A DNA stretch of 64,000 nt from Sipunculus nudus (taxonomy: Eukaryota > Annelida > Sipuncula > Golfingiida > Sipunculidae): positions 13,041,019-13,105,018 of the forward strand of contig CM049306.1 of NCBI GenBank assembly GCA_026874595.1. Direction: 5' to 3'. Each line of letters starts with the position of its first letter. The first letter of the stretch is position 1. This document shows, in pieces, positions 16,670 through 44,726 of this stretch. The notes beneath the pieces are model-generated. The model did no database searches. It had not been told where the DNA came from and saw only the letters and a program-made list of their open reading frames with translations. A program made the translations under genes and the position numbers.

Positions 16670-16878
16670 CTACATGGGTCTGCCTCGACCTCTACCTGCT
16701 GGTGCGTCTCCACCAGACTTTGGGTTTTTAATTGTCTCGTCAACAGACAGAATTAAACAAGCAGCCTCTGATGCTGCTGTGAGGGCATTGATCTTCACGA
16801 TGGATGGTTCCCACACGAAGGCTTCAAAGTTGTCTGCTATGTCCTCAGTATTAATGTCTACACCATACCAGGTACCTC
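16670..16878 (-). CDS. CCT7: CCT7 exon 11 with stop
   Basis: It encodes [20 protein letters not shown] to [12 protein letters not shown] and the glycine-arginine tail GRGRGRPM, then TAG at 16670-16672. Confidence 0.97.
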
Positions 16879-19800
16879 CTGCAACAAAAGATAAACATTT
16901 GAGTGGGCAGGTTTTGATCCATAAGTTTATAAATTAATAAGCTAAATTATTAAAGTTCACAATATGGAAAGATTCTGTTCATTACGTGGGTCCAGAAATA
17001 AGAAAAATTCTGTTCATGATGTGGTTTAACTAATGATCCTGGTATTTAATGGCTCCTACAGCTCATTTAAAACTCGCTACAAATTTTGGCTGTAGATATG
17101 CAGTCCTAGCTGGGAGTGCATAACCGAGGTAAACACTTAATGTTTGTTTGTTCCCTAACTATGGCCTTGGTTTATAGACCCAGGACCAACTCACAGGAAC
17201 TAGCAAGAGCATGTTAGGAGTACAGCTGACCTAAAACAGACCAGAAGTAGTCGCAGGATGCTCTCACATTACTCTTCCACCGCTGTAACACTGAGAGTCG
17301 CACTGACAGCGACCTCAGCTGACTAGTGGTGGGTTATAACAAGTCATGCAGTCTGAGCTGCATACTGGCAAAATGTAACAAAAACATAACAGTACAGTGT
17401 ATATGCAAAACTTGTAAAGTCATGAATGGAATGTATATTACCAAGGTGGAAATGAAGTGGACCCGGAACTGATCATTACCCTCAACTTACCCTCTGCTAA
17501 GTCCTTACTTCAGCAATAAAAAGTACACCGTGCATATTCCACAAAACTGACCATTAACTAACAAACATATTGATAATCTGCGCAGCCCTTCTTTCTTTTT
17601 TTTTCAGATTACATCAGCATCTTGAATTTTTATTTCAAGGCAGTTGAACACCCATATTATTGCTATGTGAAATGTATGTAGTTCTGATATAATACTCTCT
17701 CAGTAATTTGATTCAGACAACAGAAGATTTTCTGAGAAAATTCATTTGCCCATCACGAGTATTATTACAGCTATTACTAAGTTAAGTGGAAAGAATTCAT
17801 TTTGGCAAACCATAAATAACTTTAGTCAGAAAACTATGATTTTTCAAGGGCTTGTCATTTTCCCTTTAACCTACCACCAGGTGTGGAATGTTGTGGCCAA
17901 TGGAGAACATTTCTGATAACTATTCACATTTGAAATGGATGCTGGAGAATCTCCTTTATATATCCAGTTAAAATCAACTGACGTGACATCCACAATACAT
18001 CAGAAAACTGGCATGCAACCACTCCCACAACTCCTGATTATATGATCCAGGTAACTTAGAATTTTACCATGTATACAACCACCCCCAAATTGTGACTACT
18101 TTGGTCAGTCCCCAAGGTGGTCGTAATTGTTGGGATTCACTGTACTTACCTTGTGCATGTTTTTGCCTGAGTTTGTTGAGGATGTTTGTGGCGTCGAAGC
18201 CAGCGTTATCACATAGCTGACGAGGAATCACCTCCAGAGCTTTAGCCATGGCACCAATCAGCAGCTGCTCTTTACCTGCTATCGTCCGTGAGTAATCACG
18301 CAGGTATTTACTCAACTCCATCTCAATGGCTCCTCCACCTGAAACATAACAATCATCATCTGAAATTAAACCTTGTGTTATTTGTAATAATGAACATACA
18401 AAATCTGAAATACATCCTCTATTTTATTAATTATAACTGCAGTTTGTATTATCTTACAATGAAATCGTCAATGAGCAACCCATGGATCATGATGCTGATG
18501 GACCATTCTTTTCAAAACCTTGCATGATCACAGTTATCATATGTGTAATGTTGGAATGTTTAGATTTCAACTTGAAACTTTCTAGGGTGACTATTACTGT
18601 TTGTGCCTTCAAAATGGATACAGTGCCAGCCAGCCAACTGACAAAGACCTGTTGCTACACCTCAGCACTGCTGAGTGACTGAACCCACCTGCAACAACGG
18701 AATCGTTTTTAATGGCTCTCCTGACAATCATAATGGCATCATGCAGTGATCTTTCTGTCTCTTCAATGAACTGTTCTGCCCCTCCCCTCATGATGATTGT
18801 ACAGGTGCTGGCCTTGGGACAACCATTGAAGAGGTTATACCTGAAACAGACACAGAGACAGGAGATTATATCTGACACAGTAACAAAAGGGTTATACCTG
18901 TAGCAGACACAAACAAGAGATTATACCTGATAAAACACAGAAACAAAGAGGTTATATCTGAAACAGACACAGAGACAGGAGATTACACCTGTAATAAACC
19001 ATCTGGCAACACATCAAAACTCTTGTCCTGATGGTGGTTGTGTATCAATGTGTTGTCTGTTCCACAAACTATGGCCTGAGCTAGCATGGCTGAGACCAAC
19101 TCTCAGGAACCTGCCAGAAAGCCGAGCAGCGTGATCAGGCCCAGAACGAACCCAGTACACCAAGGCAGCACTGACAGTAATCTTCCAGTGCAGTAACACC
19201 GACTCACCCACGGTCTGGGTGCTCAGCTGACAAGCACTGGGGGGTACATGGCAATCTGAATAGTCCTGCATAGTCCTTTAACAGTTCTGTTTGCCACTGT
19301 AATCTCATGAAAACAAATTTAAAACTCCATGCTGCTTTATGTATCACTGAGCTGAAACCTAGAGAATAAGCTCAGGTGGACCATGTTTAAGAGCTATTAA
19401 ATGAATCCCTGTATCTGCATATCAGTAGCAGTTTTCTGAACAACAAACTTTCTTTATAATAACTTTACTATATAGTTCCAGATGGTGTATTACTGATATG
19501 TCGATGATGAACCTGTGGTGGAGGCATACTTAGTTCAATAAGACATGGAGAGGTGGCAGTTTTTCCGTTGTCTTACAACCTCCTACTTAGCTGCTCATAA
19601 AGCACAATGATATGCAACTTTCAGTGACTGACACAACCATTATTGCTGTCAGGCCATATTTAACAGGCTTATTGTTTGCCTTTGCTGTTATACTCTGCTG
19701 TCAATGACCATATGTAGGCCTGACATGGAAATATTACCAACAAACAGTCCTATCTAAATACTCATCTGTTTCATACCAACTTAATGTAATAACTGATCAC

Positions 19801-22800
19801 TACAAGCAGATGAATCATATTGGAAATTTCTGCTTGATATACGAGAACATATTCCTAAGGCAAATTGTCATCTGTCTGGGCAAGTCACTCACAGTTACTA
19901 TACAGTATCTTTATGATTCAATCAGACCACTATTTGTTCCTGTATCAGTATCAATGAAACCAATACAAACTGTGATGGTTGTACATACTACTAAAGTCAA
20001 AAGTTTACCTTTCACCTCCAATTTGCTTTTCTTCAAAAGATGCACAAGTGCCCAGAACATCGTCTGTGAGATTTTGAGGGGACGTTTGTATTGAACCTCC
20101 ACAGGCCTTCATGGTTCTCCTAAGATCTTCTTCAGGTACACGACCAGCACAGAACATGTCCCTGCAGCAACAAAGCAGTCAATAAATTATAGTTTCTAAC
20201 AATTTACATGTAAATATATAATGGAATTAAAATTTCAATGGAGTATAGTTTTTTACATTTTATTATATGTAAATATATAATGAAAGTAACAAGGCCTACA
20301 GGCCTAATGCTAACCTGTGCAAATTTAGGGAGTATGAATGGAGGTTTATTTTTAAAAATTTAATATTGATCCTCTTATGTCCTGCATATCTACCTTAGTC
20401 ATTATGATTTCAGCAAAATGGACGTTTCGGACCTGCAAGTTTTGGACTAGGTTATTTTAAAACTAGGATGTATCAGTCAGGATATTTTGAATATGTACTT
20501 TTTTGCCACGGTAGATTATTTGGACAGATGAATGGACAATTTGGCAGCATGGTTCCGGAGAAGAACATTTTTTAATGTTTTTTAGCTTCTACCCTATAAA
20601 ACCTTAAAAAAATGCCGTTAGCCAAGAAATAAGCAAAACCCGAAAGAATTTTTAGAAGATAAACTTTTTTGCAAAAAATTTGGTGATGCTAGTTCCTGCC
20701 CTTTTGGAGATAGCTATGACACAGGACAGACATCAGAAGACAGACCATTGCAAAAGCTCACAAATTCGCAAAAAATGCAAACCCAGGTTTTTTCAAACAG
20801 TTGAAAGATATTGTACCAATAGTTCTAATCTGGGCAATCTGCGTTTAGACGCTGTGTCTAGACACAAGACAGAGCCATTTCAGTTGCCATGGTGATGTCT
20901 GGACCCCACCTGGTTGTATTGAGTGACCTCTTGACTTGGCTGCTGAAACTCAGCATGTTGTCAAATCTGTTTTCAAACACAGAAAGCCTTTTAAAATTGG
21001 CTACACTGCTTTTTTTAAGGCTGCATTTACCCAATCTATTCTTATAAAACTGGAAGAACCCTACCATAGAATAATTCTTGTAAAGTTTAATGCAATCAGC
21101 TAAACAGTTTCATCATAAAACAGTGTATAAGCTAGAAGAGTCTAAAATTACATTTTCGCTAGTAAAAAACAGATCAATGTAGATGAGGCCACCAATACCT
21201 CAATTTCAGATATGACTTATATGACAAACATTGGCATAAAGTTTGGTGATGATAGCTCCAGCCATTTCTGAGATTTTAATTTTAGTGTGCTTTTTTGGAC
21301 AGATGACTAAGTTCAATCTCCAGTAACTCGGCCAAAAATCACTGAACTGGAACCATTCAACCAAATTTGAAAGAGATTGTTCTAGGGAACATTTCTGTGA
21401 AATATTGGACAATTTGGCTGGACAGTTTTGGAGAAGAAGATTCCTAAAGGTTTTTAAGCTTTCTCTCTATAAAAGCTAAATTAATGCAGATCCCCGATAA
21501 TAAGCTCTAAGGCACCAAGTTTCACATGTGACTAATTCTTACATGTAATTTGGAGCTCGACAGTTTCTGACTTACAGCCATGTACTGCAGACAGGCGAGC
21601 CCTGGACGGCTGACAGACGATGACGCGCCATCGCATAAGCTCACAGGTTTGCTAATAAATATTTTTTTGCATTGTCTCAGATACACTGCTATGAAGGGGT
21701 ATGTCTGAAGTTAGCAAGGCAATGAAATATACCAACAACCTACTAATGCAGTGTCTTTACCCTGACCGCCATCAATGCTGTACATTAATGAATGGACTGG
21801 CACCATCACATCCATCTCTAATGAAAACAATCTTAGTTCAAGCAAATAATCTCTTTATCGTTCCTCTAGAGACAAACACTGCTACTATAAGATTTAAACC
21901 AACAATCTTCCTTATATTGCAAACCCAGAACATATAATTGATATGCTTTGCTAAAAAAAAAGTTGGTATTTCTGAGGTACCAAAGGCTGACCAGTATTCC
22001 TCACCTATCTGCAAAGTACTGTGTAGCAACATCTCCAATTGGCAGTTTAGACAGTACCACTTTGGCACCACTTTTGTGTATCTGCTCTAGTTTGTCATAC
22101 AAAATCTTCCATTCTGCATCTACTATATTCTGGTATTCCTGAAAGTGGAAAATAAAAATAATTGTAACACAAATGACCTTAGGGTCACACTGGTGACACT
22201 TTTGGCTCTTTTGAAGAAATGTTTTGTTCAAACCTTACATAATGACAGAGGTACAGACCTGACTAAGGTATCTGAATTCAGGTTTATAATCCAATGGATG
22301 ATACCAGATTTGCAAATGACTGGACAAATGAATTTGCTTTATAGCAAATGAAAATTACTGTTTGCCAGTCTCAATAGTATTCAGCTAAATAAAATGGTGA
22401 TGCCACAGGCCTTGTATGACTGAATAGCTATGCATGTTCTACATACAAAGCAAAATCCATGCAAGGCTTTCTAGTAATTTATTTCTAGAAACTGAGTTTT
22501 AATATTTTTTTTCTTCCCAATCCTGAAATACTAAAAGAATCACAATGGTTGCCAAAACTGTTGAAATATTGGTTCTGCTAATCTTGGTCAATCTATTTAT
22601 GATAATAGGAATATTTGATAATGACTATGTTGCATGACCACTTTTAAATTATACACTTTCAGACATTTTATTTTAATAGTCATTATAAGACACCTTTACC
22701 TCAACACTGTCCACTCTGACTTCCGCATTCTCTTTCTCTGCTTTCAGTTCCAGTTCAATATTTAACATTGCTATTTTAGGGTTTTGGTATTTTTTGGGCT

Positions 22801-25800
22801 GCATCTCAAATCCTGCATAACTGAAAGTCTTCTTGAAGGCAACACCAGACACAAGCAAGGTATCCTACAACATAACCACAAACAAGAGAGTAAGCAAACA
22901 TCTCTGAAGTTCCATCAAACTTTATAACTGGCAACCACAATTTTTTTTTACCAAAAAATTTTAAATTGACAGTTATCTCAACATCTGGATATCTCCAATT
23001 CAACAAAAAACAAGGGACCCATGGGTCACATCGCTCAGCTGAATTTTGGAAAATATTAGTAACTGCAAAATATTTTTATTTCTTTTGGTTTTTCATGTAT
23101 ATTATCATTAGAAAAGCTATGAGAAAATGGCCCTGCTAAAATGAAAATTTATAGAATAATGGACATGAGCTAAACCATTTAGTGATGCACCAAGGGAACA
23201 AATAGGCCTACGGTAAGTTTTATATAAAGTAACATTTCATAAACAAATAATGTGTGAAGGTAATTAAGTTTTCAAAAGTTAAATATATGGCCATATGAGT
23301 TAAAAATTAATCTAACAAAGTTTGACCAATATTCCTAATTTTAATACTAAGTTAACAGTGTTATTCACACCTAGGCCCTGCCAACTTTATGAGATATGAA
23401 TGAAATGCTACAAAGTATTTATATCTTCTTAAATCTTGACAGTTAGCACTTACATTACATCCTAATATTTTATCACATTTGAATATTAGGATTAAATTCC
23501 TGAATTTTTTTCTTTAAAACAATCAAAATTGTCCAAGTCTCATCAAAAAGAATTTTTGTTTAACATTAAAATTATACGATATATCTTGTTTATTAGTCCT
23601 GTGTATTGAAGGGGTGGGTGGGGGGAGGGGTCTCCGTTGTTACTGCTCGTTGCTGAAAAAAATGTTAATTTTAAGATTCATCTAGTTCATAGTACAGGTC
23701 TGTCAACAGAATGGGGTCGGGGGGGGGGGGGGGGGGGGGGGGGAGCAGGGGTTGCCAGAGAAAAAGGCCCTCTGTGGTATGGTATTAACTGCAGACAGCC
23801 TGATCAAGCTCAACTCAGTGGAGAGAGCTGCACTGAATGACCTACAGTCACCAAAGTGGACTGCTTGACAATGTAAGGGAATACAACAAGAGCCTCCAAA
23901 ATAAATTCAATTACTAGCCTAATTTTGCAGCTTTTATTTTCAAATTTCAGATTTTAACAGATTAAATCCTTATGTAAACAATCTGTGAAAATTAAATCCA
24001 CAGTACTTACAGGAAAAAAACGTGCCGTGGCCAAATTTGGGTAAAATTTAAGGTACCAATTTTTATTTTTGCTAATATTTAAAAAAATTTTCAAGATTTT
24101 TTTATCTAATTTTTGGTAAACAATTTAATTTTGATTAATTAAAGTTATATTACTGGAAAAAAGTCCTTAGCTTTAACATGTTTTGTGTTAAGCGATCAAA
24201 TATCTTTCCTAATTTTTTACAAAATGCATTATGTTTGGGCCCATAACTTTTTTAAATTATATAATACAGACCTTATTTCTGGCATGAATATAGGAACTAT
24301 ATAGAGGAATATTTATGGTAAATATGAGGAAAAACAGATGAGTGGTTTTGATATTAGCCAGTCCTGAAGTGTTAAGATAGGTTTTTAATAAAAAATTGAG
24401 GTTTCTCCTTAATTTCTCAAAGGAACGAATCGCAAAGACCCAGTTTTCGGCTTTGTAGGAGATCTTGGGGACATCTAACATTATGCCAAATTTTGGATTC
24501 CTAGATCTTACGGTTTCAAAACGTGCCACATCTACCGACAGACGGACGGACGATGGACAATGGACCACGACTATACTTCAGATGACTTATAGTCAGCTGA
24601 GCTAAAAATTTAACAGATTTTGATCTAATTTTTGGTATACAATTAAATTTTAATTTAAGTTGTATTACTGAAAAAAGTCCCTACCTTTAACACTTTTGGT
24701 CCTAAGTGACCAAATATCTCTCCTGATTTTTTTACAAAGTCCATTATGTTTGGGCCCATTACTTTTTTAAATTAAATAATACTGACTTAATATCTGGCAT
24801 GTACATAGGAACTATATAGAGGTATATTTATGGTAAATATGAAGAAAACCAGATGATTGGTTTTGATATTAGGCAGTCCTGAAGTGTGAAAATAGATTTC
24901 TAATAAAAAATTGAGGTTTTTCCTTAATATCTAAAAGGAATGAAGTCCTACTGACCCAATTTTCAGCATGGTAGGAGATTTTGGGGACATCTAACTGTAT
25001 GGCAAATTTCAGATTCGTAGGTCCAATGGTGTCAAAACTTGCCAGTCTTACGGACGGACATCCGGACGGACGGACGACGGACAATGGACCACGATTATAG
25101 CTCAGATGACTAATAGTCAGCTGAGCTAAAAACAGATTTTTTTTTAGGAAACAAATGACCATTTATTATTTAGCCTTGTGTAACTTCAGTTGTTAGACCT
25201 ATCATGTTCAGCCTCAAATAATTTATCAACATATAAGACGTTTGAATCACTATGCAAAGATCAGTAATTCAGGATGTCACACAAACCTAAGAAGCAAAAT
25301 CTTATCCTTATTCATGACTGTGTGATCTTTCATTAAATTTCAGGGTTTACTTTTGGTACTGCTTGTGTATAACCCAGTGGTGAAAAAAATACAGCAGAAC
25401 AGATTATATTCGTGAAACTCAAATTTCGCAAATTGGCAAGGTCCAACCTTTCATGAGCATGTAATTTTCGCGAATTGCTTGTGGTACACACACATAATAA
25501 ATTAACAGATAGAAAATATATGTTAAAATAAACCAAGCTTGGTTATGGATGATTGTGCAGGACATGAATTTAATAACTGTGCTTACACAATGAGGCTGGC
25601 TGTTTGTGGGATGTCCCCATATAATTAGTGTTCAAACAATGCCATCGCAATAATTACTTAGAGGGCAGAATCAATTACCAGCTTGTCATAATGGTCATAC
25701 ATCAATAACCCACCCTGATTTTCAAAGGGTCATCCAACAGGTTTCATCCTGTTTCTATTAAAGTGATTTGCTTAATGAACACTGTATTTTCAAATACTGT

Positions 25801-28087
25801 GATATCAGTTCTGTTTTTTCTATGTTCAAAGCATTTAATTCCCACTGACACTACACCTACGAGCAGACTTGTAAATATGTTTGTCTGTATATTTTCAAAG
25901 TAGTGTATTTTCACTGAACTAATATACACAGAATTAATTTTAAAAGATCCAGATAAATTGAACCTCAGATTCTTGTACTGGGCACGTTAACTTCTGTGAT
26001 TGTTACTGAGTATGGCATGTAATTTTTGCGAGCATTTAATTTTTGCAAATCAAGGTTACCACGCAATATTTGTAAATTACATGCTCACAAAAATTTCTGG
26101 TTCTACAGTGTACCTTTCCACTGTATAAAGAAACATAAAAGACTGATCATCAGTTTGGAATAAATCAAATTCTCTCTTCTGTTTTAATCAAGTTTCAACT
26201 CTGGCATGCAGTGTGCATAGTTTAACAATTCAAGATGACCGTAAATATACACCAAAGGGTGAAATGGTATCAAATGAGTGAGAGAGTTCAGGTTTCTAAT
26301 GCATACCTAGGGAGGAAATCATAATGAAGGGCTACTATTTAAGTATGCTATTAACCTCTGTGGCCCAGTCAACTGTGTTATGCCCTAACACATTGGAAAT
26401 TTTCAGCAGCACTGCCATTTTAGTCCCCCACTCCGCGGATGCGGGGGACATTGATTTTGGTTTGTCTGTCTGTCCGTCAGGTTTCGTTTCCGTGCGATAA
26501 CTTTCCAAAATATTATCCTATTTTAACCAAATTTGGGTCAGTGATTGCTCTCATGCATACCTTGGTTGGGATTGGTTTTGCAGTGTCTGGCTTCTGTCTG
26601 TCTGTCACTTTGCTGTCTGTCTGTCAGGTTTTTGTTTCTGTGCGTTAACTTTCCTAAATATTATCCAATTTCATTCAAATTTTGGTCAGTTATTGCTCTC
26701 ATGCTTACCTTAGTAGGGATTGGTTTTGGAGTGTCTGGCTTCTGTCTGTCTGTCACTTTGTCGGTCTGTCTGTCAGGTTTTTGTTTCCGTGCAATTACTT
26801 TCCTAAATATTATCCGATTTCATTCAAATTTGGGTCGGTGATTGATCTCATGCATACCTTGGTTGGGATTTATTTTGGAGTGTCTGGCTTCTGTCTGTCT
26901 GTATGTCTGTCACTTTGTCTGTCTGTCAGGTTTTCATTTCCATGCAATAAATTTCCTAAATATTATCCAATTTCATTCAAATTTTGGTCAGTGATTGCTC
27001 TAATGCTTACCTTGGTTGGGATTGGTTTTGGAGTGTCTGGCTTCCGTCTGTCTGTCACTCTGTCTGTCCATCTGTCAAGTGTTCGTGTCTGTGCCATTAC
27101 TTTCCTAAATATTATCTGATTTCATTCAAATTTTGGTCAGTGATTGCTCTCATGCTTACTTTGGTTGGGATTGGTTTCGGAGTGTCAGGCATCTGTCTGT
27201 CTGTCTGTCTGTCTTTCACTCTGTTTGTCAGATTTTCATTTCCGTGCAATAACTTTCCTAAATATTATCCGATTTCATTCAAATTTTGGTCAAACATTGC
27301 TCTCATGCTTACCTTGGTTAGGATTAGTTTTCAAGTGCCTGGCTTTTGTCTGTCTGTCTGTCACATTGTCTCTGTCTGTCAGGTTTTCGTTTCCGTGCGA
27401 CAACTTTCCTAAATATTATCAAATTTCATTTAAATTTTGGTCAGTGATTCCTCTAATGCTTACCTTGGTTGGGATTTATTTTGGAGTGTCTGGCTTCTGT
27501 CTGTCTGTCTGTCACTCTGTCTGTCCTTTCTTTATCAAGAATGAAAAACAACAAGATCCCAAAGCAGGGGGACATTAATACTACGAATATGTTGTTTTTT
27601 TTAATGAAGGAATCTCAAGAAAAGGCTTCTTGTACTTACTGTTGCTAATGATGGAACATTTAAGGATAAACTAATATGTAATCCATACCTGGAGAGCACC
27701 TCCTTGAACTTTCTTCATGCCAATCATGTTGAGTGGCAGCAGCTCATCCAGCATCATGACAGCATCTACCACCATCTTGCTGAAGAAGTCCTTCTGTCCA
27801 GCCACCAGCTTAGAGCTCAGGGCCGTTGCTGCACATTTTTCTAACAGGCTCCTCTGTTCACTGAAAGAAGCTTTTATTCTTTATAAATTGCACAAATATA
27901 AGATATTACAGTCTTACAAGATATTTAAATTATTTACCAAGCATAAAACCATAGTATCCCTAACCAACTACAATGTGTGTTGTCCTGTAGTTGTCAATAA
28001 TGTAACTATAATTGTATTTTCCCCTATTATTAATACCAGCTATATATATATATATATATATATAAATATATAAATATATATATATAA

Positions 28088-28171
<84 letters not shown>

Positions 28172-34100: not shown

Positions 34101-37100
34101 AAACACAGATGTATTTAATTTTTTCTATAAATATATTTTTAAATTATAACTTTTTTAAATTATATAATACTGACTAAATTACTGGCACTTACATAAGAAC
34201 TATATAGAGGAAACAGTAAAAGTTTTCAGATACTGTGATGCATATGAAAAATTTACAGATGGACAGGCAAGTGGACAGAATGGACTAATACATTTATTTC
34301 ACTTTCAAGGGAATAATGCATTTAAGTTTATATATAAGCCTATTTTTTTTAGCATATCCACTTTTTCCATTAATAGTTTTAAATCTGATTCATTTTTTTT
34401 TATTTACAAGTTTTATAAATTTGTAATAAAACAACTGAAAATATAAATTAAACTATTAGAATTCTAAGTTGCAATCATTATATATCCAGAGTGTAGCTCA
34501 TATTGGGTCATATTATGCATACACATATATTTTATTATTTTTAAATCACAAATGTTTAAACTGAATTTAAAAGAAAATAATGCCACAACATGGCATCTAC
34601 AAGATTATTCCTTGAATCACTATTAAAAATTTTTGCACATTGGAGTTTTCAGTACATGCTTAATTTTATTCACCGAAATAAAATAAAAGATTCAGTAAAT
34701 TTGATCAAATAAAAACATCTTTTCAAATAAAGTATACACACTTTTGGTTGAATGAGGGACAAACAATATCATTATGCTAATTACAATCTCAGCTATAATT
34801 TATTACTGGAATTAATAGTCAATTTCACACCTGGTGAAGTTTTTACTCTCTTGAAGTAAGGAATTACTTATCTGATGAACATCCGCACTTTCATAGCTAT
34901 ACACCACTTTGTGGACACTATTAAATGTGCACTTTAATCATTGTAACCCAGGTGGTACAATACAAAATCTAAAATGTAGCATAGCCATGAATAAAATAAT
35001 ATACAGAAAATTATAACATTCATCTAGATAATGCACCATCTGGGGGGGGGGGGGAGTGCAGGGCAGAGGGGAAGCCTGCTAGTAGTGGCCAAGCTGAGCC
35101 TGAGGCAAGCTGCCTGGGGTGGGTTACATAAGTGATGACTGTTTTACTAGGTGGGCCAGATGTAAACAACACTTGACATGGTGTATGAAAACTTGAATAT
35201 AAGCTACTCTTTTCAATCAATTCCTTAGAAATTTCAGATTTTAAAAGATTAAAACCTTATGTATATATGCTGTGAAAATTAAATCAACAGTGCTTACAGA
35301 GAAAAAACGTGCCATTCGCAAAGTTGGACAAAATTTAAGGTATTAATTTTTTATTTATGCTAATAACTTGAAAAATTTGCAAAATTCAGATGTAATTTTG
35401 GGTAAATAATTGAATCTTGATTAAATAAAGTTACATTCCTGAAAAAAAAGTCTCCAGCTTCAGCAATTCTCATGTTAGATGAGTAAATATATTTCCTGAT
35501 TTTTTAAAAAATTGCATTATATTTTGGCCCATAACTTCAAAATAATACCCAATACTGACCTAATTTTTGGTATGTTCATAGAAAATGTTTGAAAGAATAT
35601 GAATACTAAATATGACCAAGAACAGATCAGTGGTTTTGATATTAGACAGCCTTGAAGTGTAACAATGGCTTTTTATGGAAAACGGGAGGTTTTTCCTTAA
35701 TATCTCGAAGGAACGAAGTCCTCATGACCCAATTTTCGGTATGATAGGAGATTTTGGGAACATCTAATGGTAGGTAAAATTTTGGATTCGTAGGTCCAAC
35801 AGTTTTAAAACATGCCCTGTTAACGGCTGGACGGCCGACGGACAAAGGACCACGACTATAGCTCAGACGACTTACAGTCAGCTGAGCTAAAAATCAGTGA
35901 TTGTACCCACAACCAGAAAAAAAATGTGATCCACATGATCATTTTGTAACAATATACATATTCAAATGTTTGTTTGTTAATAATATTTCTCCTCGGCATT
36001 CGCACATATAAAAACATGCATGTAATTTAAGCTAGAAGTAATACAATATGACTTCTCTTCTTCTGAAAAATGGCTAACTAAAGATAAGTAGAGATTCAAG
36101 CCTTTATGTAAAGCTTTATGTTGCATCCATTTGCCCAGTCGGGCAGGTAGGAATCCTCTTTTGGTTGACCTAACATCATTTTCTAGAACTTTTACTTGCC
36201 CCAGGCAAGTGGTTAACTGTTAATGTCAAGCCCTGCTGTGTATCATGATTATCATCTAAAGAGCAAAAAATTAATTAAAAAGATATGAAAAACTTTGACA
36301 TATTTGCAAATATGATGAGTTGTTAACTTTAAATGTTAAATAAAATTCCAGAATGAAATTTTCTGTGTAAGAACCTGACCTTTAAACAGAGAGAATTGTT
36401 TGTTCCATTAACTAAGGCCAAGGTAAACATGACCAAGACCAACTCTCCAGAACCTGCCAGAGCACCTGTGTAGCACACCTGAGGTCCAAAACGAACCCAG
36501 ATGTTCTCAGGTAAAGCTGACCTTACTCTCCCACAGCTGTAACACTGGAGCGTCCATGGAGAGGATGTCCAGCTGACTAGCTGTGGAGTCTCGTATTCAT
36601 GGTTATATAATTTTCTACCGTCGTACCAGAAAAATACAAGGAAACTTGGTAATAAACAGGAAAAATTTAAAATACCGGTATCTAGTTTATGATAGGTATC
36701 TGGTCTTTTTTCCTGATTCTTAGAGATTTTGAAAATATCCACTCAAAGATTTCAGGGATTTTTAGATGATACGAGCATTGGGGCAATGATCTAGATATAG
36801 ATGATAGTACCAAGGTTGTTATGGGTGTTTTTTGGGATTCTGTTTGTAAATATCTCCAACTGGCAGTGACATCTGGTGAGGACTGGAGCAAATAATATTA
36901 ATGTTTAATATATTTTGAAGGTATTCTAGACAAACCTTAGAGTAAAAGAAAACAAGGCCTACAGGCCTAATGTGAACCTGTACAAAGTTTGGGAGTATGA
37001 ATGGAGGTTTATTTTTGAAATTTAATATTGATCCTCTTAAGTCCTGCATATCTACCTTAGTCATTATGATTGCAACAAAAGGGACCTTTCGGACCTGCAA

Positions 37101-40100
37101 GTTTCAGGCTAGGACATTTTAAAACTAGAATATGGGTAGTCAACAAGCAACTATGTGTATCTGCAGAAATCAGAGTGGCACAGGTGAAGTGAGGCATGGA
37201 TTGAGTGGCAAGGATTAGAGTGAGGTGTGTTGAATATTAGCATGGATGTCTGCAGTGTAAACGTGAATGCAGGTGGTGCCACTTGTCATAAAATCGAGAA
37301 AATTGTCCAGGATGTATAAACACGCAAAATTTCAGGTGGATAAGTCAAACCACTGCTGAGATATGAGTGATTTTATCCCAAGGCAGATAAACAGATGGAC
37401 GCTGTGCATAAGTGGTTGCAGGTGGCGCCACCAGTTTTGCCTATGATTAAGAGCTATGTGAGATCTATACACAAGCAAAATTTTGGCCCAATCGGTCAAA
37501 CAGTTCCCGAGATATGAGCTTGGATGTCTGCAGAGTAAATGTGAATGCAGGTGGCGCCACCTGTCATAAAATCGAGAAAGCTGTCCAGGATGTATGAACC
37601 TGCAAAATTTCAGGTGGATAAGTCAAACCACTTCTGAGAAATGAGTGATTTTATCCAAAGGCAGATGAACAGATGGACACTGTGCATAAGTGGTTGCAGG
37701 TGGCCCACCAGTTTTGCGTATGATAAAGAGCTCCGGGAGATCTATAAACAGGCAAAATTTTGGCCCAACTAGTCAAATGGTTCCCGAGATATGAGCTTGG
37801 ATGTCTGCAGCTTAAATGTGAATGTAGGTGGCGCCACCTGTCATAAAATCAAGAAAGTTGTCCAGGATGTATACACATGCAAAATTTCAGGTGGATCAGT
37901 CCAACCAATGCAGAGATATGAGTGTTTTTATCCCAAGGCAGATGAACAGATGGACGCTGTGCAAACATGGTTGCAGGTGGCGCCACCATTTTTTGTGTAT
38001 GTTATAAAGCTTTCCAAGGGCTACATTTCTTTAGCCTTATTGGTCAAACGGTTTCCTAGATATGTGGGTTTATGCATGGAAACAGAAGCACAAATGGGCG
38101 CTGGGCAGAGAAGAAAGGTCAGAGGTCAACCAAAATGAGGGCTACCCGATATGTATAAACATGCCCAATTTTAGGCTGATGTATCAAATTCCTCTTTAGA
38201 AATAAGCAGGCGCACACAATACAAAAGTCAATGTAGGTGGCACCACTTGTCTTGTAAATGAGAATACCATCAAAGACGCATAGACAGGTCAAAAAATAAG
38301 TCCAATATATCAAACTTCTCCAGAGTTTGATTCAATGGGCTGACAAGGCTCAGGTGAGTAAGGCAGTTGCCCCCGAGGGACCTGCGACAAATTTCTGCCT
38401 CAAGCTACTGCACTGAGTGAACTTTTGACCTGTACCTTGCTGCACTGAGTGAACTCTTGACCTGTTGCATAATCTGACACAGCTGGCAGTCTGCCAAAGC
38501 TATAAATAGATTCAGGCTGAAGTTTGGTGCCAAATATGATGCAGTGAGCAGTCTGCCAAAGCTATAAATAGAATGCAGCTACTGCACTGATTGAACTCTT
38601 GATCTTTACCTGGCTGCACTTCTTCCAATCCTGGCACGATGCCAAAACTATTTATAGAGCTGACATCTTGGCTAATGGCCAACATCAAGGCACTAGCAAT
38701 CTGCCAATGGTAAACCAAGTGCTGCCATCTGTACACAAAAGTGGTCCCTACATGAAATAACTTTGAAATTTATTTTCCCATTACAAAATGCTTTTCAGCT
38801 GACTTTTTATAAAAAAAAAGAAATCAGGAATATATGTAAAATTATTACGGATGCATACTGAATGCAAAATTAAAATACAGATATATCTCATTGATGGCAA
38901 ATTCTTGAATTAAGTTGAGTAGGGATACCAAAAATTTATAATCCACGTACAGTTGTCTTTATATAGCCACAGAGAGTTGAATATCCATGATTTTAACATT
39001 GTCTGGTATGATAAATAACTTAAATCATAAATCGAAATTTTTTAAAAGCTTTTAAAAAAACTTTCTTGTCAATATTAACCAAAGATAACCTGAAACCTAA
39101 ATGTCTAGTGGCATGATGGTGCCAGGCTTGATGTAACAGCATCACACAGCTAACATATATGGTAAAATGACTCAATTCAATCTCCATAATTCAGCCAAAA
39201 ATCATTCATGTGGAACCATTAATGACAATTATTATAAGAATTATTGTAGGGATTATTCTTGTAAAATATTTAACAAACTGGCTTCAGTGGCATCAGTCGA
39301 AAAACTGGTTTATACCTCATATAGGAAGATACAGCAAATTGGCTAAGTTCAGCTTCCCGTAAATCAGCCAAAAAGCACTGTACCAAAACCATTTGAACAA
39401 ACTTGAATTATCAACATCTGAGGATAATTAATGTGTGAGATTTAAGAATTTGGCCCAGTGGTTTTTGAGAAGATCTTTGTATCCACTGAGCTAAAATGGG
39501 CTGTTATGGCATATGACTAAATTCAGCTTCCCATAACTTAGCCAAAAGTCACTGAAAAGAGACCATTTGAACAAACTTCAGAAAGCACTACCCTAGGATC
39601 ATTTCTGTGCGATATTAAACATTTTGGCCATTTGGTTTCAGAGAGAAAGTTTTTTGTAGCCTTTCAGTGAGATACAGGCACTGATGACCCCGTACAAAAA
39701 AGGCCGATGCAGGTGGCGCCACCAATACCTCAATTTCAGATATGACCTATGTGACCAACATTGGCATAAAATTTGGTGATGATAGCTACAGCGGATTTTG
39801 TGATATAAATTTTAATATGCTTTTTGGCACAGTTAACTAAGTTCAACCTCCTGTAACTCGGCCAAAAATCTCCGAACTGGAACCATCAACAAACTTGAGA
39901 AAGATTGTTCCAGGGATCATTTCTTTAAAATATTAGAAAATTTGGCTGGGCAGTTTCGGAGAAGAAGATTTTTAAAGCTTTTTTAGCTTTTTCCCTATAA
40001 AATCTAAGAAAATGCAGTTAGAAAAATAATAAACAAAATCCGATATAGTTTTTTGGATGACTGATTCTTTGCAAAAAATTTGGTGATGCTAGCTCCTGCC

Positions 40101-43100
40101 ATTTTCGAGATAGCTATGGTTAACGTACAGACGCACGACGCCGCACCATCGCATAAGTTCACAGGTTCGCTAATGAAGAAATCAGGCCAAGATGATATCT
40201 ATTAGATAGAAAGGAATACATAATAAACAGAGAAATACACATAATTAATATGTAATACATTTTCTTTATTTGAAGAAAATTAAAATGTTTACCTCTGCAT
40301 CTTGAGACTTTGCTATGTCAACAAGAGTCTTTGCTGCTGGATGAACAATGTCCAGTAATTTCATTATAGTGGCACCATCATTTGATATTGTAGCTTTCCC
40401 TTTGCTATCCACTATGAGCTTGTCCATGCCCCTTGGACCAAGGGTTGTACGGACAGCGTCAACTATGGCCTGGCAGGCATTGATGTTACTGATGAGCTGG
40501 GGCTTTCCCTGCGAGGTGTCTGTGCCCTCTTTCAGGAGGATGATTGGTCCATTCTGAAAAAAATAAGGCATTAACTTACAGACATTGATTCCTCCTTATC
40601 TTCATCTGCAGTGAATAATATTTTTTTTTTTGGTGGCTGTAACTGCCTCCATTTTTTTAATGTATTTTACATTATATACATCTGAGAATCAAATTTTGGT
40701 TTGGGACTGCATGACACAGCGTTTATGTAACTTCCTGTTATTTAGTATCCTGGCAATACCCAGGCCAGGTCTACTGTACCTGCAGGTCTCAGGTGTGTAA
40801 TTATCCCCACTGTTGAGAGTTGGGTTACCAGTATAACATAATGATGCACTTGTTTGTGAGCGAGACATGGCGGAGGGACACAACATTCTCATTGAGCCTG
40901 CAAAGTGCTCACCTTGGGAGGGGGCAGACCGTGAAAAATCCAAGAGGTCCTCCGCTGAGATTTGAACTCAAAATCTTTAAGCTTTAAGGTGTGTGCACTA
41001 CCTCTAAACCACAAGCTGGTTGCCATGATAAGAAGTTGACAAAATAGCCTTTGCCAGGCAGTGGGCATGAAAAAGCAGTGGCAAACATATGATAATCCTA
41101 GGTGTTCATGAATAAGAATTCTCCATCTGCCTGGATGTCACACAAAATTGGTCTCTGAATGACTCAATCATGAATGTTGGTTGCACTATATTTACCGGCA
41201 CTTCAAAAACATGGCAGTCACTATGTTCACACTTCACATCATGAATTTAGAATGTGGTTTGCAATAACAACCATCATATTCACCAAAATTAAAAGAAGCT
41301 TTGAATAATCAATGAATTCAATTAGTCATTTGATTCATCCCAGGGTTTCCGCCAGGGTTGAAAAAGTGTGTCCGTTTTTACTTTGTGACAGGGAGTGAAC
41401 CTAGCGTGGGGGCTTCGCCCCCACGGGGGGAGGGTGTGGGAGGGGGTGTGGAAATTTTACAAAATCAAGGTTGAAAACAACGTTTCTGATGTTCTTTTTC
41501 AGCTTAGTATCACGCCCATGGAAGGCGTAAAAATATACCAGTAAAATATTCGTTAGGCCTTCATGTGATGCAGCATGCACGTACAAGTCGTGTCTCCCTG
41601 ACATATGTGGGCCCACAAACTGGCCTTTTACTTAACTATTCCTTGGAAAGGATTCGCCTAAACATCTGTTTTGGAAACTTGCGCAAACCGAATTGACGAA
41701 GATAAATATAATAAATATAGGGCCTGTTCTGCCCAAGCGATGTCCACGTTTGTTTTTATTATATCGTGCACGCTTCCTGTGTATCCCCAAGCTATTGACC
41801 AATTCAACATACCCCTCCAGGGACTAACGGTTTCCCGCGCTCCCAGATTACCCGCGCCTGGTGCTTACCGCGTGATCTCCGCTGACCGGGTGTTCACGAT
41901 GGGCCCGCACTACAGCCGGCGTTTTGTCGGCTGCTGCAACGCATTCAACGGCCGGCTGCTTTTCTCAAAGTTAAATGACAAAAAATATATATTGCTGTCG
42001 CATGCTTTTACTAAAAATTCGTGCAATATCCTTGAAATTTAGTGTGTTAGGCCTACTTGTTATAGGCCCAACATTTGATTCTGCGAAATCCCTGATTGCG
42101 ATCGTGTCCGAGACGGCCCAATCATTGACCAGCATAACCTGTTTCTGCACGTATGACATTCAGTTGAATTATTCAGAACTTCCTCCGACGCTATTGGCTG
42201 CATTTGCCACAAGTTTTTATTTCAATAGGGAATTCCCTCATGAATATTCGCACATAGAACAGCGCATTCACTACGCTCCGGCCTTTTGAAATTTGTTCGG
42301 TAAAGTCAAGACAAAAGCCCTTTGCATTGTGACCTCGCTGCAAGGCTCGCGGTATGTTAATATGTCAAAGCAGCGATTTCCACAGCGACTGCATGATGAA
42401 AATGATTCACCTTCTTCAAATTTTGAAAAATATATCATCACAACCAAATAAAACACAAATTTAATTTCCATTATCGATAGGTTATCATTTTTACTGACTA
42501 CAGAGACTGAATGTACGGTTGTCGAACGATTAATTATAATATCACACCTTTGGCCGGTAGCGCATGTTCAGGGCCGACATTGTACGTCCGACATCGTACG
42601 TCCACAACCTATGGTTACACAACTGATTACCTTCTCCAGAAAATTAAATGGCGAGACTGCATAAAAACTATTTGCGCAGATGTTGTACATGTATAAGGAA
42701 TCTTTTTACTGATCTATTCTTTTCAAAGTTTTTCAGACATTGCATTGTCAGGACAGTGACTGAGTGGCACCGAACAGGCGACGGGGGCGCGCAAATCTGA
42801 TACATAGTTTGAAGATGATGAAGACAGCACGACACTCGTGCTTGAGTTATTATTAAGCTCTCTCAGCCTCTTTGGCTGGGGGAATTTTTAATGACCCTCG
42901 CGGGGGAAAGAGTCTGTTTACCGGCCTAAATTTTAGGGTCGCGGAAACCCTGCATCCACTTACATGGCACAGAATTTGTACTGGCCTTCCGTAAAATTTC
43001 CAGCTTCAAGCCACATGCATATTCACGATAGTTGATACACATTACACACTGTTTTTTATCTGGGAAAATGTTGAAAAAAGTTCAAAGAACTTGCTTTTAC

Positions 43101-44726
43101 AAAGGTTACATTGGTTTAACACTGTATGTTCATTAACTATGGCAAACGTGATCAATATATCACAGTGGCCAACTCTAAAGAACAAACAAGGACACAGGCT
43201 GTACAGCTCAGGCAGTCTAGAACAGATTACCAGTGCCTCCTGATTCCCTGATTGATCTACCACTGCTGTAACACTAACATATACATTATCAGGTATAGCC
43301 AGCTGACTAGCAGTGGTTTATAGAAGACAGCAACAATACCTGAATGCTTAAGTGGTACAGTGCTGTTATAATACAAATAATATCATTATGTATACACTTT
43401 TAATGGTGAATCTGGAAACAAGCCAGGAACATTAAGTTTAAATTATCTGCATAATTTAATCTGCACACAGTGCCCCACACACACATGCATACAGAATTTG
43501 TTTAACTGTTACTACTCAAGAAATGGATCTTTATATTATTTTGGTAACAGTGCAATACAAGTGACTAGCTATAGTATGTACAGCAGTCATCTGAGGAACA
43601 TATGATGTCCTATAACCAAGTTGTGTGTCGAGACACACAATTAGGCTATTTAGTCTAATAAAGTGCAGGATTGGATTAACAACAGGGTCCCCCATCTCTG
43701 TCATGGTGTAAGTGGTTCGGACCATTTTCCACATGTGAAATGTAACAGAAAATTGCTGTAGTGAAATACACCTGGAATTTTATATTTGCCTCTAAAGTCA
43801 ACCCAGGTAGGCCAGAGGGCTTGTCTGCTCAGCCATTGCCAGCGGTGACGCTGCAGCCCTGGGCAACCCCCTCACCCGCCTGTGAAAGGGCTGCTCTGAT
43901 TTACTGGAAGTTTCCTCTGACTTTTTGCCCAGGAACATGCAAGGGGCTGGCATATTTGTCAATACACCGCCCTGGCATCGTTCTTTATATTACCTGTTTC
44001 CGCAAAAGGTCGCGTAGAACCCAAGGGACAAGACAGTCACCAGACAAGAATTTAGGTAGGTCACTTATATTGCACTATTACCATTCTTATTGTAAACTAC
44101 TATGAGCCATCAAATGATAAAATAATATAAAAAAGTGCACTTTACTATATTTATTTAGTAGTAAACAGAAATATGCAGATTGCAAAAAAGAAACATCAGC
44201 TACACTGACAAACAAAGAACTTATTTTGATTTGAAATAAATTCAATCCAATCATGAAAAATTCAATTATTTATAAATATTATTTATTACTGATTATTTAT
44301 ACTGGTTTTCGTACAAAAACTAAATATTTAGAAATAATTGATTATTGAAACAAGTAAAAGAAGTATCAGTTCAGGGCTTTAAAAACTTGCTGGAAAAGTC
44401 AAAGGTGATAGCGAAATGATAGAAACAACAAAACATTCCAATGATAACTTCAATATTTCGTTTTCTTTTCCGATTTATTCACGTAGCAACATGCTTTGGC
44501 ATGCAGAGTAACCGTATTCGAGAATATTCCCGTCCGTCTGACAGGCGATAACAGGTGAAAATACGGAGGCTTTGTTGCACAGCAAGATATATAATGCTGA
44601 AAGTTGGGGTGAAATATTATTAGAATAAACTGTTACAATAAATGGGCTTTCCATCTCAGGCATCTACTTTGTTCTACATGAATGGATGGTAATGATATCA
44701 GCAGATCAGCAACAGTGACTTACCAT
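16670..44726 (-). CDS. CCT7: CCT7, chaperonin TRiC/CCT subunit eta, complete in 11 exons
   Basis: Eleven exons join in phase to 538 codons plus TAG (human protein is about 543 aa). CCT7 is one of eight subunits of the double-ring cytosolic chaperonin that folds actin, tubulin and other proteins with ATP. Visible features are the N-terminal nucleotide loop [13 protein letters not shown] (about residues 38-50), the P-loop motif GDGTT (90-94), eta-type blocks [20 protein letters not shown] and [36 protein letters not shown], the hinge VVAGGGAIE (about 404-412), [18 protein letters not shown] and the eta-specific tail GRGRGRPM. Exon 1 supplies only the ATG. Introns total over 26 kb and carry four H/ACA snoRNA copies and many mobile elements. 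Nothing suggests a defect in the coding sequence. Confidence 0.97.
17142..17335 (-). ncRNA. U19-like H/ACA snoRNA, copy 1, in CCT7 intron 10
   Basis: Read on the minus strand, hairpin 1 has lower stem CCACCACT/AGCGGTGG (one G-T pair), pocket strands AGTCAG and TGTTAC, and an upper stem CTGAG/CTCAG plus GTCGC/GCGAC. AGAGTA follows as H box, 15 nt below the upper stem. A middle stem AGAGCAT/ATGCTCT comes next. The 3' hairpin has lower stem GTTCC/GGAAC, pocket strands with GAGTT and TAGTTA, and upper pairing CCT/AGG and GGT/ACC; ACA lies 14 nt below. The pockets can direct pseudouridylation of GUAAC[U]AUGAC and UAACUA[U]GACUC in 28S helix 69. This copy has the weakest 3' pocket (GTGAGT instead of GAGAGT). 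Confidence 0.82.
18150..18338 (-). CDS. CCT7: CCT7 exon 10
   Basis: It encodes [20 protein letters not shown] to [10 protein letters not shown]; it completes the GGG hinge begun in exon 9 and returns to the equatorial domain. Confidence 0.97.
18689..18840 (-). CDS. CCT7: CCT7 exon 9
   Basis: It encodes [20 protein letters not shown] and [19 protein letters not shown] to SVVAG. The acceptor sits at the edge of a minisatellite made of copies of the same intron-exon junction (18841-18995). Confidence 0.96.
18841..18995. repeat. Minisatellite made of the CCT7 exon 9 splice junction
   Basis: Three units of 57-60 bp begin at 18831, 18889 and 18949 with GAGGTTATACCTGAAACAGA or a close variant. The first unit spans the real exon 9 start and acceptor; the others copy it into the intron, giving extra TTTCAG-like acceptors on the minus strand. 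Confidence 0.85.
19051..19242 (-). ncRNA. U19-like H/ACA snoRNA, copy 2, in CCT7 intron 8
   Basis: On the minus strand the lower stem of hairpin 1 is CCAGTGC/GCACTGG, where the middle pairs are swapped relative to copies 3 and 4. The upper stem is CTGA/TCGG plus CACCCA/TGGGTG. The H box is AGATTA. The 3' hairpin keeps GTTCC/GGAAC, the pocket GAGAGTT/TAGTTT and upper GGTCT/AGGCC; ACA follows 15 nt below the upper stem. The left 5' pocket strand is TGTCAG instead of AGTCAG, one pair fewer with the target. The 3' end is about 210 nt from the exon 9 acceptor. Confidence 0.82.
20009..20161 (-). CDS. CCT7: CCT7 exon 8
   Basis: It encodes [20 protein letters not shown] and the segment to EEKQIGGE. 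It is spliced in phase from the Arg codon split with exon 7. Confidence 0.96.
20289..21655 (-). mobile_element. HINE/Helentron-like element, family F6, copy 1
   Basis: Read on the minus strand the element ends in an AGGCCTGTAGGCCT hairpin and CTTGT followed by T. The other end has TTAGCAAACCTGTGAGCTTATGC. Both ends carry AACCTGTG or its inverse as subterminal inverted repeats. A second copy spans 36952-40176. The inside has repeats with GGCCAAAAATCACTGAACTGG and TTTGGCTGG. It lies in CCT7 intron 7. Confidence 0.6.
22005..22138 (-). CDS. CCT7: CCT7 exon 7
   Basis: It encodes [19 protein letters not shown] and [15 protein letters not shown], part of the substrate-facing apical domain. Confidence 0.96.
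22700..22864 (-). CDS. CCT7: CCT7 exon 6
   Basis: It encodes [18 protein letters not shown] to RVDSVE, in the intermediate and start of the apical domain. The acceptor is TTGTAG and the donor GTAAAG. Confidence 0.96.
23010..24607 (-). mobile_element. HINE/Helentron-like element, family F5, copy in CCT7 intron 5
   Basis: The plus strand begins ACAAGGGACCCATGGGTCAC, a 12-bp palindrome next to the end, then GCTCAGCTGA; it closes with TCAGCTGAGCTAAAAA. GCTCAGCTGA/TCAGCTGAGC is the subterminal inverted pair. Read on the minus strand the 3' end is hairpin plus CCCTTGT before T. A poly(G) tract is at 23719-23743. Confidence 0.65.
24608..25131 (-). repeat. Partial tandem duplicate of the F5 head
   Basis: About 520 bp next to the F5 copy repeat its last 500 bp with some divergence, including TGTTTGGGCCCAT, GGAACTATATAGAGG and the end GTCAGCTGAGCTAAAAA at 25131. 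It has a head end but no tail end. Confidence 0.75.
25132..26422. other. CCT7 intron 5, unassigned AT-rich sequence
   Basis: No exon is seen. Scattered phrases such as CATGTAATTTTCGCGAA (about 25459) and TACATGCTCACAAAAATT (about 26079) look like decayed inverted-repeat transposon sequence. Confidence 0.4.
26423..27581 (+). mobile_element. Array-bearing non-autonomous element, family F7
   Basis: The left end has a hairpin CCCCC...GGGGG followed by ACATTGAT, and the right end GGGGGACATTAATAC; the pattern parallels the ends of F1. Between them is a 150-bp array. It lies in CCT7 intron 5. Confidence 0.5.
26460..27535 (+). repeat. About 150-bp tandem array, 7 units, with TCTG microsatellite
   Basis: CCTAAATATTATC or a variant occurs at about 26505, 26653, 26802, 26955, 27104, 27257 and 27408. 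Each unit ends in a CTGTCTGTCTGTC-type stretch. Because unit lengths stay near a multiple of three, long overlapping open frames appear on the plus strand, but they only translate the repeat. Confidence 0.92.
27689..27860 (-). CDS. CCT7: CCT7 exon 5
   Basis: It encodes [19 protein letters not shown] and [20 protein letters not shown] to GGALQ, ending before GTATGG. Confidence 0.96.
28040..28168. repeat. (TA)n microsatellite in CCT7 intron 4
   Basis: About 130 bp of nearly pure TA repeats, with a few AAATATA interruptions at the left. Confidence 0.97.
28317..28369 (-). CDS. CCT7: CCT7 exon 4 (53 bp)
   Basis: A short exon encoding [17 protein letters not shown]; it leaves AA of an Asn codon completed by exon 5. 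Confidence 0.93.
28794..28919 (-). CDS. CCT7: CCT7 exon 3
   Basis: It encodes [18 protein letters not shown] through [17 protein letters not shown] contacts the nucleotide phosphates. It is phase 0 at both ends. The upstream intron is 11.4 kb, the longest in the gene. Confidence 0.97.
29581..30108 (-). pseudogene. LINE endonuclease fragment (EEP domain)
   Basis: The minus-strand frame contains [21 protein letters not shown] and [10 protein letters not shown], in the order of the catalytic motifs of apurinic-type endonucleases of non-LTR retrotransposons. No reverse transcriptase motifs are seen nearby, and the first and last parts read as noise, so it is a dead 5'- and 3'-truncated piece within the nest. 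Confidence 0.7.
30425..33320 (-). mobile_element. F5 HINE-like element, inner copy with a 340-bp array
   Basis: The plus strand starts ACAAGTGACCCATGGGTCAT and GCTCAGCTGA, and ends with GGACGACGGACAAAGAGTGA and GTCAGCTGAGCTAAAAAC. It is enclosed by another F5 copy, and its body is almost only the tandem array. Confidence 0.65.
30600..33200 (+). repeat. About 338-bp tandem array, 8 units
   Basis: The phrase ACAGGTGGCGCCACCAGTCT or a variant recurs at about 30616, 30957, 31299, 31627, 31961, 32300, 32640 and 32979. Each unit also carries GGATATGGGTAACAGAGACC and GATTCTAGGTCCAGT. Divergence between units is moderate. Confidence 0.93.
36394..36588 (-). ncRNA. U19-like H/ACA snoRNA, copy 3, in CCT7 intron 2
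   Basis: On the minus strand hairpin 1 has lower stem CCACAGCT/AGCTGTGG, pocket strands AGTCAG and TGTTAC, and upper stem CTGGA/TCCAG. The H box is AGAGTA. A middle hairpin ACCTGAG/CTCAGGT follows. The 3' hairpin has GTTCT/GGAAC, pocket GAGAGTT and TAGTTA, and upper GGTC/GGCC plus GGT/ACC; ACA lies 15 nt below. It has full complementarity in the 3' pocket to UAACUA[U]GACUCUC of 28S helix 69. It sits beside the nested transposon block 29224-36240 but outside it. Confidence 0.85.
37125..38330 (-). mobile_element. F2 Helitron-like element, inverted copy inside F6
   Basis: Read on the minus strand it ends in the TAGTTG/TGACTA hairpin, CCCATATT and CTAG at 37128-37125, followed by T, the same end as 7930-7959. 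Units with GGTGGCGCCACC (37421, 37550, 37827, 37976) are the reverse complement of the array at 6700-7830. The 5' end is approximate. Confidence 0.6.
38340..38760. repeat. Short local repeats of unknown origin
   Basis: CTGCACTGAGTGAACT with variants occurs three times and CAGTCTGCCAAAGCTATAAA twice. It is not like the other families. Confidence 0.6.
40293..40553 (-). CDS. CCT7: CCT7 exon 2
   Basis: It encodes residues 2-88, with [13 protein letters not shown] and [19 protein letters not shown], the ATP-site part of the equatorial domain. It is phase 0 at both ends. Confidence 0.97.
40689..41022 (-). mobile_element. tRNA-derived SINE in CCT7 intron 1
   Basis: On the minus strand, TGTGGTTTAGAGG (41013-41001) fits an A box and GAGTTCAAATCTC (40969-40957) a B box of the RNA polymerase III promoter, in a tRNA-like head. 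A tRNA-unrelated body of some 250 bp follows. The tail boundary is approximate. Confidence 0.65.
41341..42952. mobile_element. CAGGG-ended 1.6-kb element in CCT7 intron 1
   Basis: Terminal inverted repeats CAGGGTTTCCGC and GCGGAAACCCTG bound it exactly, and CATCC directly flanks both sides. The interior is more GC-rich than its surroundings. It holds a hairpin GTGGGGGC/GCCCCCAC at about 41407-41428 and an open frame at 41671-42042 without a recognised domain. hAT-like is inferred from the CAGGG ends. Confidence 0.7.
43120..43319 (-). ncRNA. U19-like H/ACA snoRNA, copy 4, in CCT7 intron 1
   Basis: On the minus strand hairpin 1 has a perfect 9-bp lower stem ACCACTGCT/AGCAGTGGT, pocket strands AGTCAG and TGTTAC, and upper stem TATAC/GTATA with a G-T-rich base. 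The H box is AGATCA. The 3' hairpin has GTTC/GAAC, pocket AGAGTT and TAGTTA, and upper GGC/GCC plus GTGAT/ATCAC; ACA lies 14 nt below. Stem sequences differ from the other copies while pairing is kept, and pocket strands are unchanged, which argues for selection on function. Confidence 0.85.
44724..44726 (-). CDS. CCT7: CCT7 coding exon 1: ATG only
   Basis: The minus strand reads GGCAAAAACATG then GTAAGTCACTG, so the exon ends exactly after the start codon. Exon 2 begins AATGGACCAATCATC, giving [11 protein letters not shown], which agrees with the family. An ATG read from intron sequence just before exon 2 would give an extra peptide (MPYFFQ) that contradicts the good acceptor TTTTTTTCAG. Confidence 0.85.

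Follow-up and report, generated by a model that had tools for sequence, protein, structure and literature searches.

The window analysed here is a stretch of 64,000 nt from Sipunculus nudus (CM049306.1), and its central part is occupied by the chaperonin gene CCT7, which lies on the minus strand. The exons were located with a human CCT7 probe sequence and were then refined by their splice sites, which gave the following gene:

16670..44726, minus strand: coding part of CCT7, 11 exons, with a spliced open frame of 538 aa
44726-44724, minus strand: exon 1, ATG/GTAAGT, one of five candidates
40553-40293, minus strand: exon 2
28919-28794, minus strand: exon 3
28369-28317, minus strand: exon 4 (53 nt)
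27860-27689, minus strand: exon 5
22864-22700, minus strand: exon 6
22138-22005, minus strand: exon 7
20161-20009, minus strand: exon 8
18840-18689, minus strand: exon 9
18338-18150, minus strand: exon 10
16878-16670, minus strand: exon 11

All 10 introns have GT...AG ends. The best PDB matches of the 538-aa product were T-complex protein 1 subunit eta (E 3.9e-297). Among the best 120 of 7980 protein matches an unnamed protein (88% identical) came top; the nearest named proteins by identity were those of the chiton Liolophura (87%), the annelid Owenia (86%) and the brachiopod Lingula (85%), and a beetle protein with 74% identity was third among the named ones by score. Taken by themselves, these identities make a lophotrochozoan most likely and a mollusc plausible. 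Exon 1, which apparently encodes the initiator methionine alone (44724-44726), was picked from the five ATG-donor candidates for its GTAAGT donor; another in-frame ATG sits directly upstream of the splice acceptor of exon 2.

Several other features were seen in the window. Positions 1-4388 are taken up by a tandem array in which a 43-bp unit is repeated in 102 copies with 96% matches, and further tandem arrays are present at 5147-6344, 6750-7738, 26461-27513, 30572-33253 and 37234-38001. An ORF in CCT7 intron 2 (29581-30108, minus strand) gave a weak match to Exo_endo_phos_2 (endonuclease-reverse transcriptase; E 1.8e-4, below the cut-off) and is likely a LINE fragment. Upstream of CCT7, at 61061-63127 on the minus strand, lie ORFs of 136 and 352 aa that had no Pfam match at E<=0.001 and are possibly exons of a neighbouring gene.

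The whole window was searched against Rfam by cmscan, using permissive filters and E<=2. This yielded 12 matches, eight to microRNA or lncRNA families, each under its own cut-off, and four to SNORA74 (RF00090), for which the gathering score (the Rfam cut-off) is 71 bits. The four SNORA74 matches identify these elements:

17142..17335, minus strand: U19/SNORA74 copy in CCT7 intron 10; Rfam match 17143-17333, 71.3 bits, E 8.1e-16, above the cut-off
19051..19242, minus strand: U19/SNORA74 copy in CCT7 intron 8; Rfam match 19056-19241, 52.6 bits, E 2.3e-10, below the cut-off
36394..36588, minus strand: U19/SNORA74 copy in CCT7 intron 2; Rfam match 36397-36587, 54.3 bits, E 7.1e-11, below the cut-off
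43120..43319, minus strand: U19/SNORA74 copy in CCT7 intron 1, a placement that depends on the inferred exon 1; Rfam match 43121-43317, 65.9 bits, E 3.1e-14, below the cut-off

A preliminary description, made from the sequence of this window, had reported four U19-like copies at these positions on the minus strand and had proposed the Rfam U19/SNORA74 model as a check. The model recognised all four (E 8e-16 to 2e-10), and its positions 1-201 were covered in every copy. The gathering score was reached by one of the four, the intron 10 copy, and we counted the lower scores of the other three against a reading of the copies as functional U19. The copies are 192-200 nt long, as expected for U19 (about 200 nt). 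That no further copy exists elsewhere in the window, as had also been reported, was found both by cmscan and with a model derived from the four (E<=10), neither of which detected a fifth one. A search of the window for the exact pattern GTCAGCTG-N18-34-GTGTTAC gave four occurrences, whereas 100 shuffles gave 0.00 on average.

The claim that CCT7 is the host and that all copies are in its sense agrees with the gene as annotated here: the four copies are intronic and are on the same strand as the intact 538-aa frame. In introns 1, 2, 8 and 10 the distance from the 5' splice site is 1404, 3704, 766 and 814 nt, and that to the 3' splice site 2566, 7474, 210 and 263 nt, respectively. With exon 4 counted, the numbering as introns 10, 8 and 2 was borne out, these copies being located between well-matched exons. 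Since exon 1 is one of five pattern candidates, we infer, rather than observe, that the copy at 43120 is in intron 1. If the true start were the ATG near the acceptor of exon 2, the coding part would begin only downstream of this copy.

In H/ACA RNAs the pocket lies 14-16 nt ahead of the H box and of the ACA. The boxes of the four copies are the following:

17270..17275, minus strand: H box AGAGTA of the intron 10 copy, letters checked
17145..17147, minus strand: ACA box of the intron 10 copy, 3 nt ahead of the 3' end
19178..19183, minus strand: H box AGATTA of the intron 8 copy; its ACA is 19054-19056, at +15
36524..36529, minus strand: H box AGAGTA of the intron 2 copy; its ACA is 36397-36399, at +15
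43253..43258, minus strand: H box AGATCA of the intron 1 copy; its ACA is 43123-43125, at +14

The H boxes (AGAGTA, AGATTA, AGAGTA and AGATCA) are exactly those described before. All four copies thus have the H box ANANNA and the ACA, 3 nt from the 3' end, that characterise an H/ACA RNA; the 3' ends (17142, 19051, 36394 and 43120) are predicted ends, each 3 nt past an ACA. The spacing of 14-16 nt that had been claimed was found in each copy as well. From the start of the right arm of the 5' pocket to the H box the distance is 14 nt in all four, and from the 3' pocket to the ACA it is 14 or 15 nt, where each copy offers two or three ACA triplets and one of them was selected (the other one or two are at 10, 11 or 18 nt).

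Pairwise identity among the copies is 56-67%, and their trimmed alignment (A2) has 206 columns. In the 5' hairpin a lower stem leads to the pocket, whose arms are AGUCA and GUUAC (the intron 8 copy has UGUCA in place of AGUCA), and the upper stem starts directly at the pocket. In the 3' hairpin the pocket arms are (G/U)(A/U)GAGU and UAGUU(A/U). Between these two a third, middle hairpin is present, which was absent from the preliminary description. Its loop GUU(U/C)U is conserved (A2 columns 95-109) and is present in the Rfam consensus too; its apical stem is paired in 95.8% of the cells, so that the copies have the extra middle hairpin of U19. In A2, variation of the middle domain is greatest outside this apical stem-loop. 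The middle hairpin is located outside both guide pockets, for example inside 17142-17335.

RNAalifold, run on the untrimmed alignment with flanks, gave a poor 3' half, and a structure of 35 named pairs, set partly by hand after viewing the alignment, was used instead. Standard pairs were found in 93.6% of its 140 cells (35 pairs in four copies), compared with 33-43% when the partners were slid. Ten of the 35 stem pairs have changed on both sides, a number that none of 500 shuffles reached (mean 5.0); eight of these are in the 5' hairpin, two in the middle stem and none in the 3' hairpin. Two stem pairs of the intron 8 copy are non-standard. As the controls were applied to four related sequences and to a structure derived from them, they are supportive of the fold, short of proof.

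SNORA74/U19 has been reported as the guide for 28S Psi3741 and Psi3743, 'the two most conserved' of its pseudouridines (PMC6466398). To relate the pockets to these positions, pairing was computed on the printed, conserved animal 28S. Upstream of the R2 insertion site the animal 28S reads GGGAGTAACTATGACTCTCTTAAGG (stick insect, PMC4370867), and part of this stretch is in use as a conserved primer (PMC7650587). In the S. nudus assembly an exact 23-mer of the target had 0 matches. A 15-mer with up to one mismatch matched 71 places (control 131), one of them exactly; this single place is within repetitive, satellite-like DNA and was not accepted as 28S. The rDNA may have been masked in this assembly or be absent from it; we counted the failure to find the S. 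nudus target against the reading of the copies as functional U19. The pocket that was followed letter by letter is:

17285..17324, minus strand: 5' pocket of the intron 10 copy, left arm AGTCA at 17320-17324 and right arm GTTAC at 17285-17289

In this pocket 10 of 10 positions pair with 28S, on either side of the first uridine (in brackets) in GTAAC[T]ATGACT. For the copies at 17142, 19051, 36394 and 43120, the 5' pockets make 10, 9, 10 and 10 of 10 pairs around the first bracketed uridine of GUAAC[U]A[U]G; around the second one, the 3' pockets make 11, 11, 12 and 11 of 12. Human 28S is modified at positions 3737 (Psi), 3739 (Am), 3741, 3743, 3747 and 3749 (Psi) (PMC6182160), and in our own reading the spacing of these positions matches U, A, U, U, U and U in GAGTAACTATGACTCTC. 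Because this spacing fits, the two pocket targets were taken as human 3741 and 3743; both pockets of all four copies are therefore complementary to the equivalents of U3741 and U3743 in the printed animal 28S. We counted against a functional U19 that both pockets of the intron 8 copy contain a mismatch, one apiece, and that the intron 10 and intron 1 copies have a single left-arm mismatch each in the 3' pocket. Invariant columns are more frequent among the guide positions (18 of 22) than among all others (59 of 184, p 9e-6) or among those outside boxes and named stems (15 of 103, p 2e-9); the guide columns and the named structure were fixed after the alignment had been seen, and both tests are favoured by this.

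Judged from the family match, the boxes and their spacing, the pocket pairing, the two-sided stem changes, the host and the orientation, the four elements are very probably functional U19 (SNORA74) box H/ACA genes, old paralogues of each other, in four introns of CCT7. The alternative that deserves most attention, although we consider it unlikely, is that one or two of the copies are working U19 genes and the others are decaying paralogues which still look intact. The drop of the Rfam scores from 71.3 to 52.6 bits would fit with such decay, and so would the pocket mismatches in three copies, with one per pocket in the intron 8 copy; moreover, paralogues in the same host are known to vary in abundance (PMC8178906). 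However, boxes, spacing and at least 20 of the 22 guide pairs were kept in all four copies despite a divergence of 33-44%, and the stems have been maintained through two-sided changes. It is improbable that labour has been partly divided, with some copies acting on helix 69 while variable parts, for instance the middle domain, have given others a new target. The variability of that domain outside its apical stem-loop would fit such a division, and for human SNORA74A a further listed target is U3 position 8 (PMC6466398) and binding to PARP-1 is mentioned (PMC11758842), but the helix 69 pockets are retained in four out of four copies.

The presence of further copies was investigated in the complete assembly (1,426,538,692 bases, 153 contigs) by means of exact pocket seeds, which are blind to copies with an altered pocket core or in unassembled or masked parts. 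The 5'-pocket seed was found at 100 places (control 19), the four CCT7 copies and 96 others, and the 3'-pocket seed at 8 places (control 7), the four CCT7 copies and 4 others. Under a scoring model built from the same four copies that it recovers, the CCT7 copies scored 167-204 bits. All 96 other 5'-seed places were scored, giving 21 matches at E<=10 with a best score of 17.9 bits; the 4 other 3'-seed places gave one match of 7.8 bits and, in three cases, no match at E<=10. Of the 96 other 5'-seed places, 16 were searched with Rfam at E<=0.01, and no SNORA74 was detected in them. Thousands of copies elsewhere in the genome, which the preliminary description had named as the outcome that would speak against a snoRNA family, were not seen within reach of the two exact seeds, where the maximum outside the four copies was 17.9 bits. 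A DNA search of the genome with copy 1 found this copy alone and missed the other three. The genome-wide Rfam search, in which 32 of 19261 candidates were scored and one of the four known copies was recovered, was too shallow and was not used as a copy census.

Under this scoring model three of the 96 places had E values of 0.007-0.009 (L063, L042 and L043), a result that weighs against the preferred reading. Zero Rfam matches (E<=0.5) were obtained for L063, L042 and the 4 other 3'-seed places. L063 was rejected as a U19 copy, being the end of an LTR. Eighteen closely alike places among the 96 (e.g. L033:1501-1540, minus strand) represent ends of an LTR-like element, which terminates in GTCAGCTGGACC...GGTCCCAGTGTTACA. 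Five pairs of these places have their members 5.7-5.8 kb apart; shared internal letters come after one member of every pair, and unlike DNA after its partner. The similarity within the LTR-like element stops directly after GTGTTACA, which explains its resemblance to U19; the likeness of the LTR end to the U19 5' hairpin is most likely a coincidence. L042 (near 9,833,700) and L043 (near 9,844,000) are near-identical and 10 kb apart on the minus strand of contig C4. Both show a 5' hairpin like that of U19, in which the pocket arms are UGUCA and GUUAC and most of the lower stem is paired (17.5 bits); by eye there is no H box in register. They are possibly the decayed relic of a fifth U19, or a product of chance.

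As the seed places outside CCT7 never exceed 17.9 bits, we do not regard the copies as members of a dispersed repeat. That a SINE-like element or a retroposed snoRNA landed in CCT7 is extremely improbable, for although H/ACA RNA retroposition is known (PMC8178906) and the flanks of the copies are unrelated, all four copies are in a single gene and in sense, no target-site duplication stands out, and the 96 and 4 other seed places score far below the 167-204 bits of the four.

The origin of the array was considered from the same flanks. At E<=0.01, blastn gave matches between the snoRNAs only, and the 400-nt flanks of the copies had no mutual match. In the 40-nt flanks no target-site duplication stood out; the longest words in common were 5-8 nt, a length equalled in 23-208 of 300 random pairs. 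With a divergence this old, the lack of a target-site duplication leaves retroposition possible, and an old duplication within the gene and an old retroposition are both possible. Because of the sense orientation and the single host, duplication within the gene, combined with selection for host transcription, would seem to be favoured.

The copies resemble known SNORA74/U19 (RF00090) in size, in the H and ACA boxes, in the GUUUU-type middle loop, in both pockets and in the helix 69 target pair. They differ in their setting, the host of human SNORA74A being MATR3 (PMC6466398), whereas here four diverged copies are present in CCT7; a non-coding U19 host gene has also been named (PMC2653536). In yeast, snR191 is the guide for 25S Psi 2258 and 2260, which belong to helix 69 (PMC8307265) and form a target pair two positions apart, as here. 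In chicken, paralogous snoRNAs are distributed across introns of a single host, with their guides kept and the remainder diverged (PMC2653536). One example is GGgACA4, with three H/ACA isoforms in introns 6, 7 and 10 of PABPC4 (PMC2653536), which is similar in having isoforms of one H/ACA RNA in several introns of a host but differs in both the RNA and the host. Two sister genes of CCT7 are H/ACA hosts in chicken as well, TCP1 (introns 1 and 9) and CCT6A (intron 3), but their RNAs are homologues of ACA29, ACA20 and ACA28/ACA68, not of U19 (PMC2653536).

Our searches, which covered open-access literature and, among RNA databases, Rfam, gave no description of CCT7 as a host of U19 or of any snoRNA. 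The main text of a squid genome paper gives 41 H/ACA loci and contains no SNORA name, and the main text of a schistosome paper contains neither U19 nor SNORA74. The suggestion that a U19 array in CCT7 is new held within the scope of these searches, but not for the type of arrangement, which is already in print (PMC2653536). Intronic sets of H/ACA paralogues and chaperonin hosts are already known, and the U19 set in CCT7 is a well-supported addition to them.

Release of intronic snoRNAs by trimming back to the dyskerin snoRNP is an established pathway. Under the preferred reading, that of four functional U19 genes, CCT7 would be transcribed with the copies carried in its introns, and each U19 would be freed from the spliced intron in this way. 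Dyskerin would then be directed to two 28S uridines of helix 69, by the 5' hairpin to the counterpart of human 3741 and by the 3' hairpin to that of human 3743. The predicted Psi sites are the two uridines of GUAACUAUG in this helix. Multiple copies may serve dosage or robustness.

No other intact U19 was found in the 1.43 Gb by the exact seeds used. It is conceivable, and we put it forward tentatively, that the whole U19 supply comes from CCT7 alone, from four anciently diverged copies that are each under selection, and that modification of helix 69 is tied to CCT7 transcription and splicing. If this is true, a single chaperonin gene would be the only source of the RNA that guides formation of the two most conserved ribosomal pseudouridines, the notable points being the copy number, the divergence and the apparently exclusive host. 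Four copies at 56-67% identity with the same two guides form a natural data set for the requirements of U19, including its middle hairpin.
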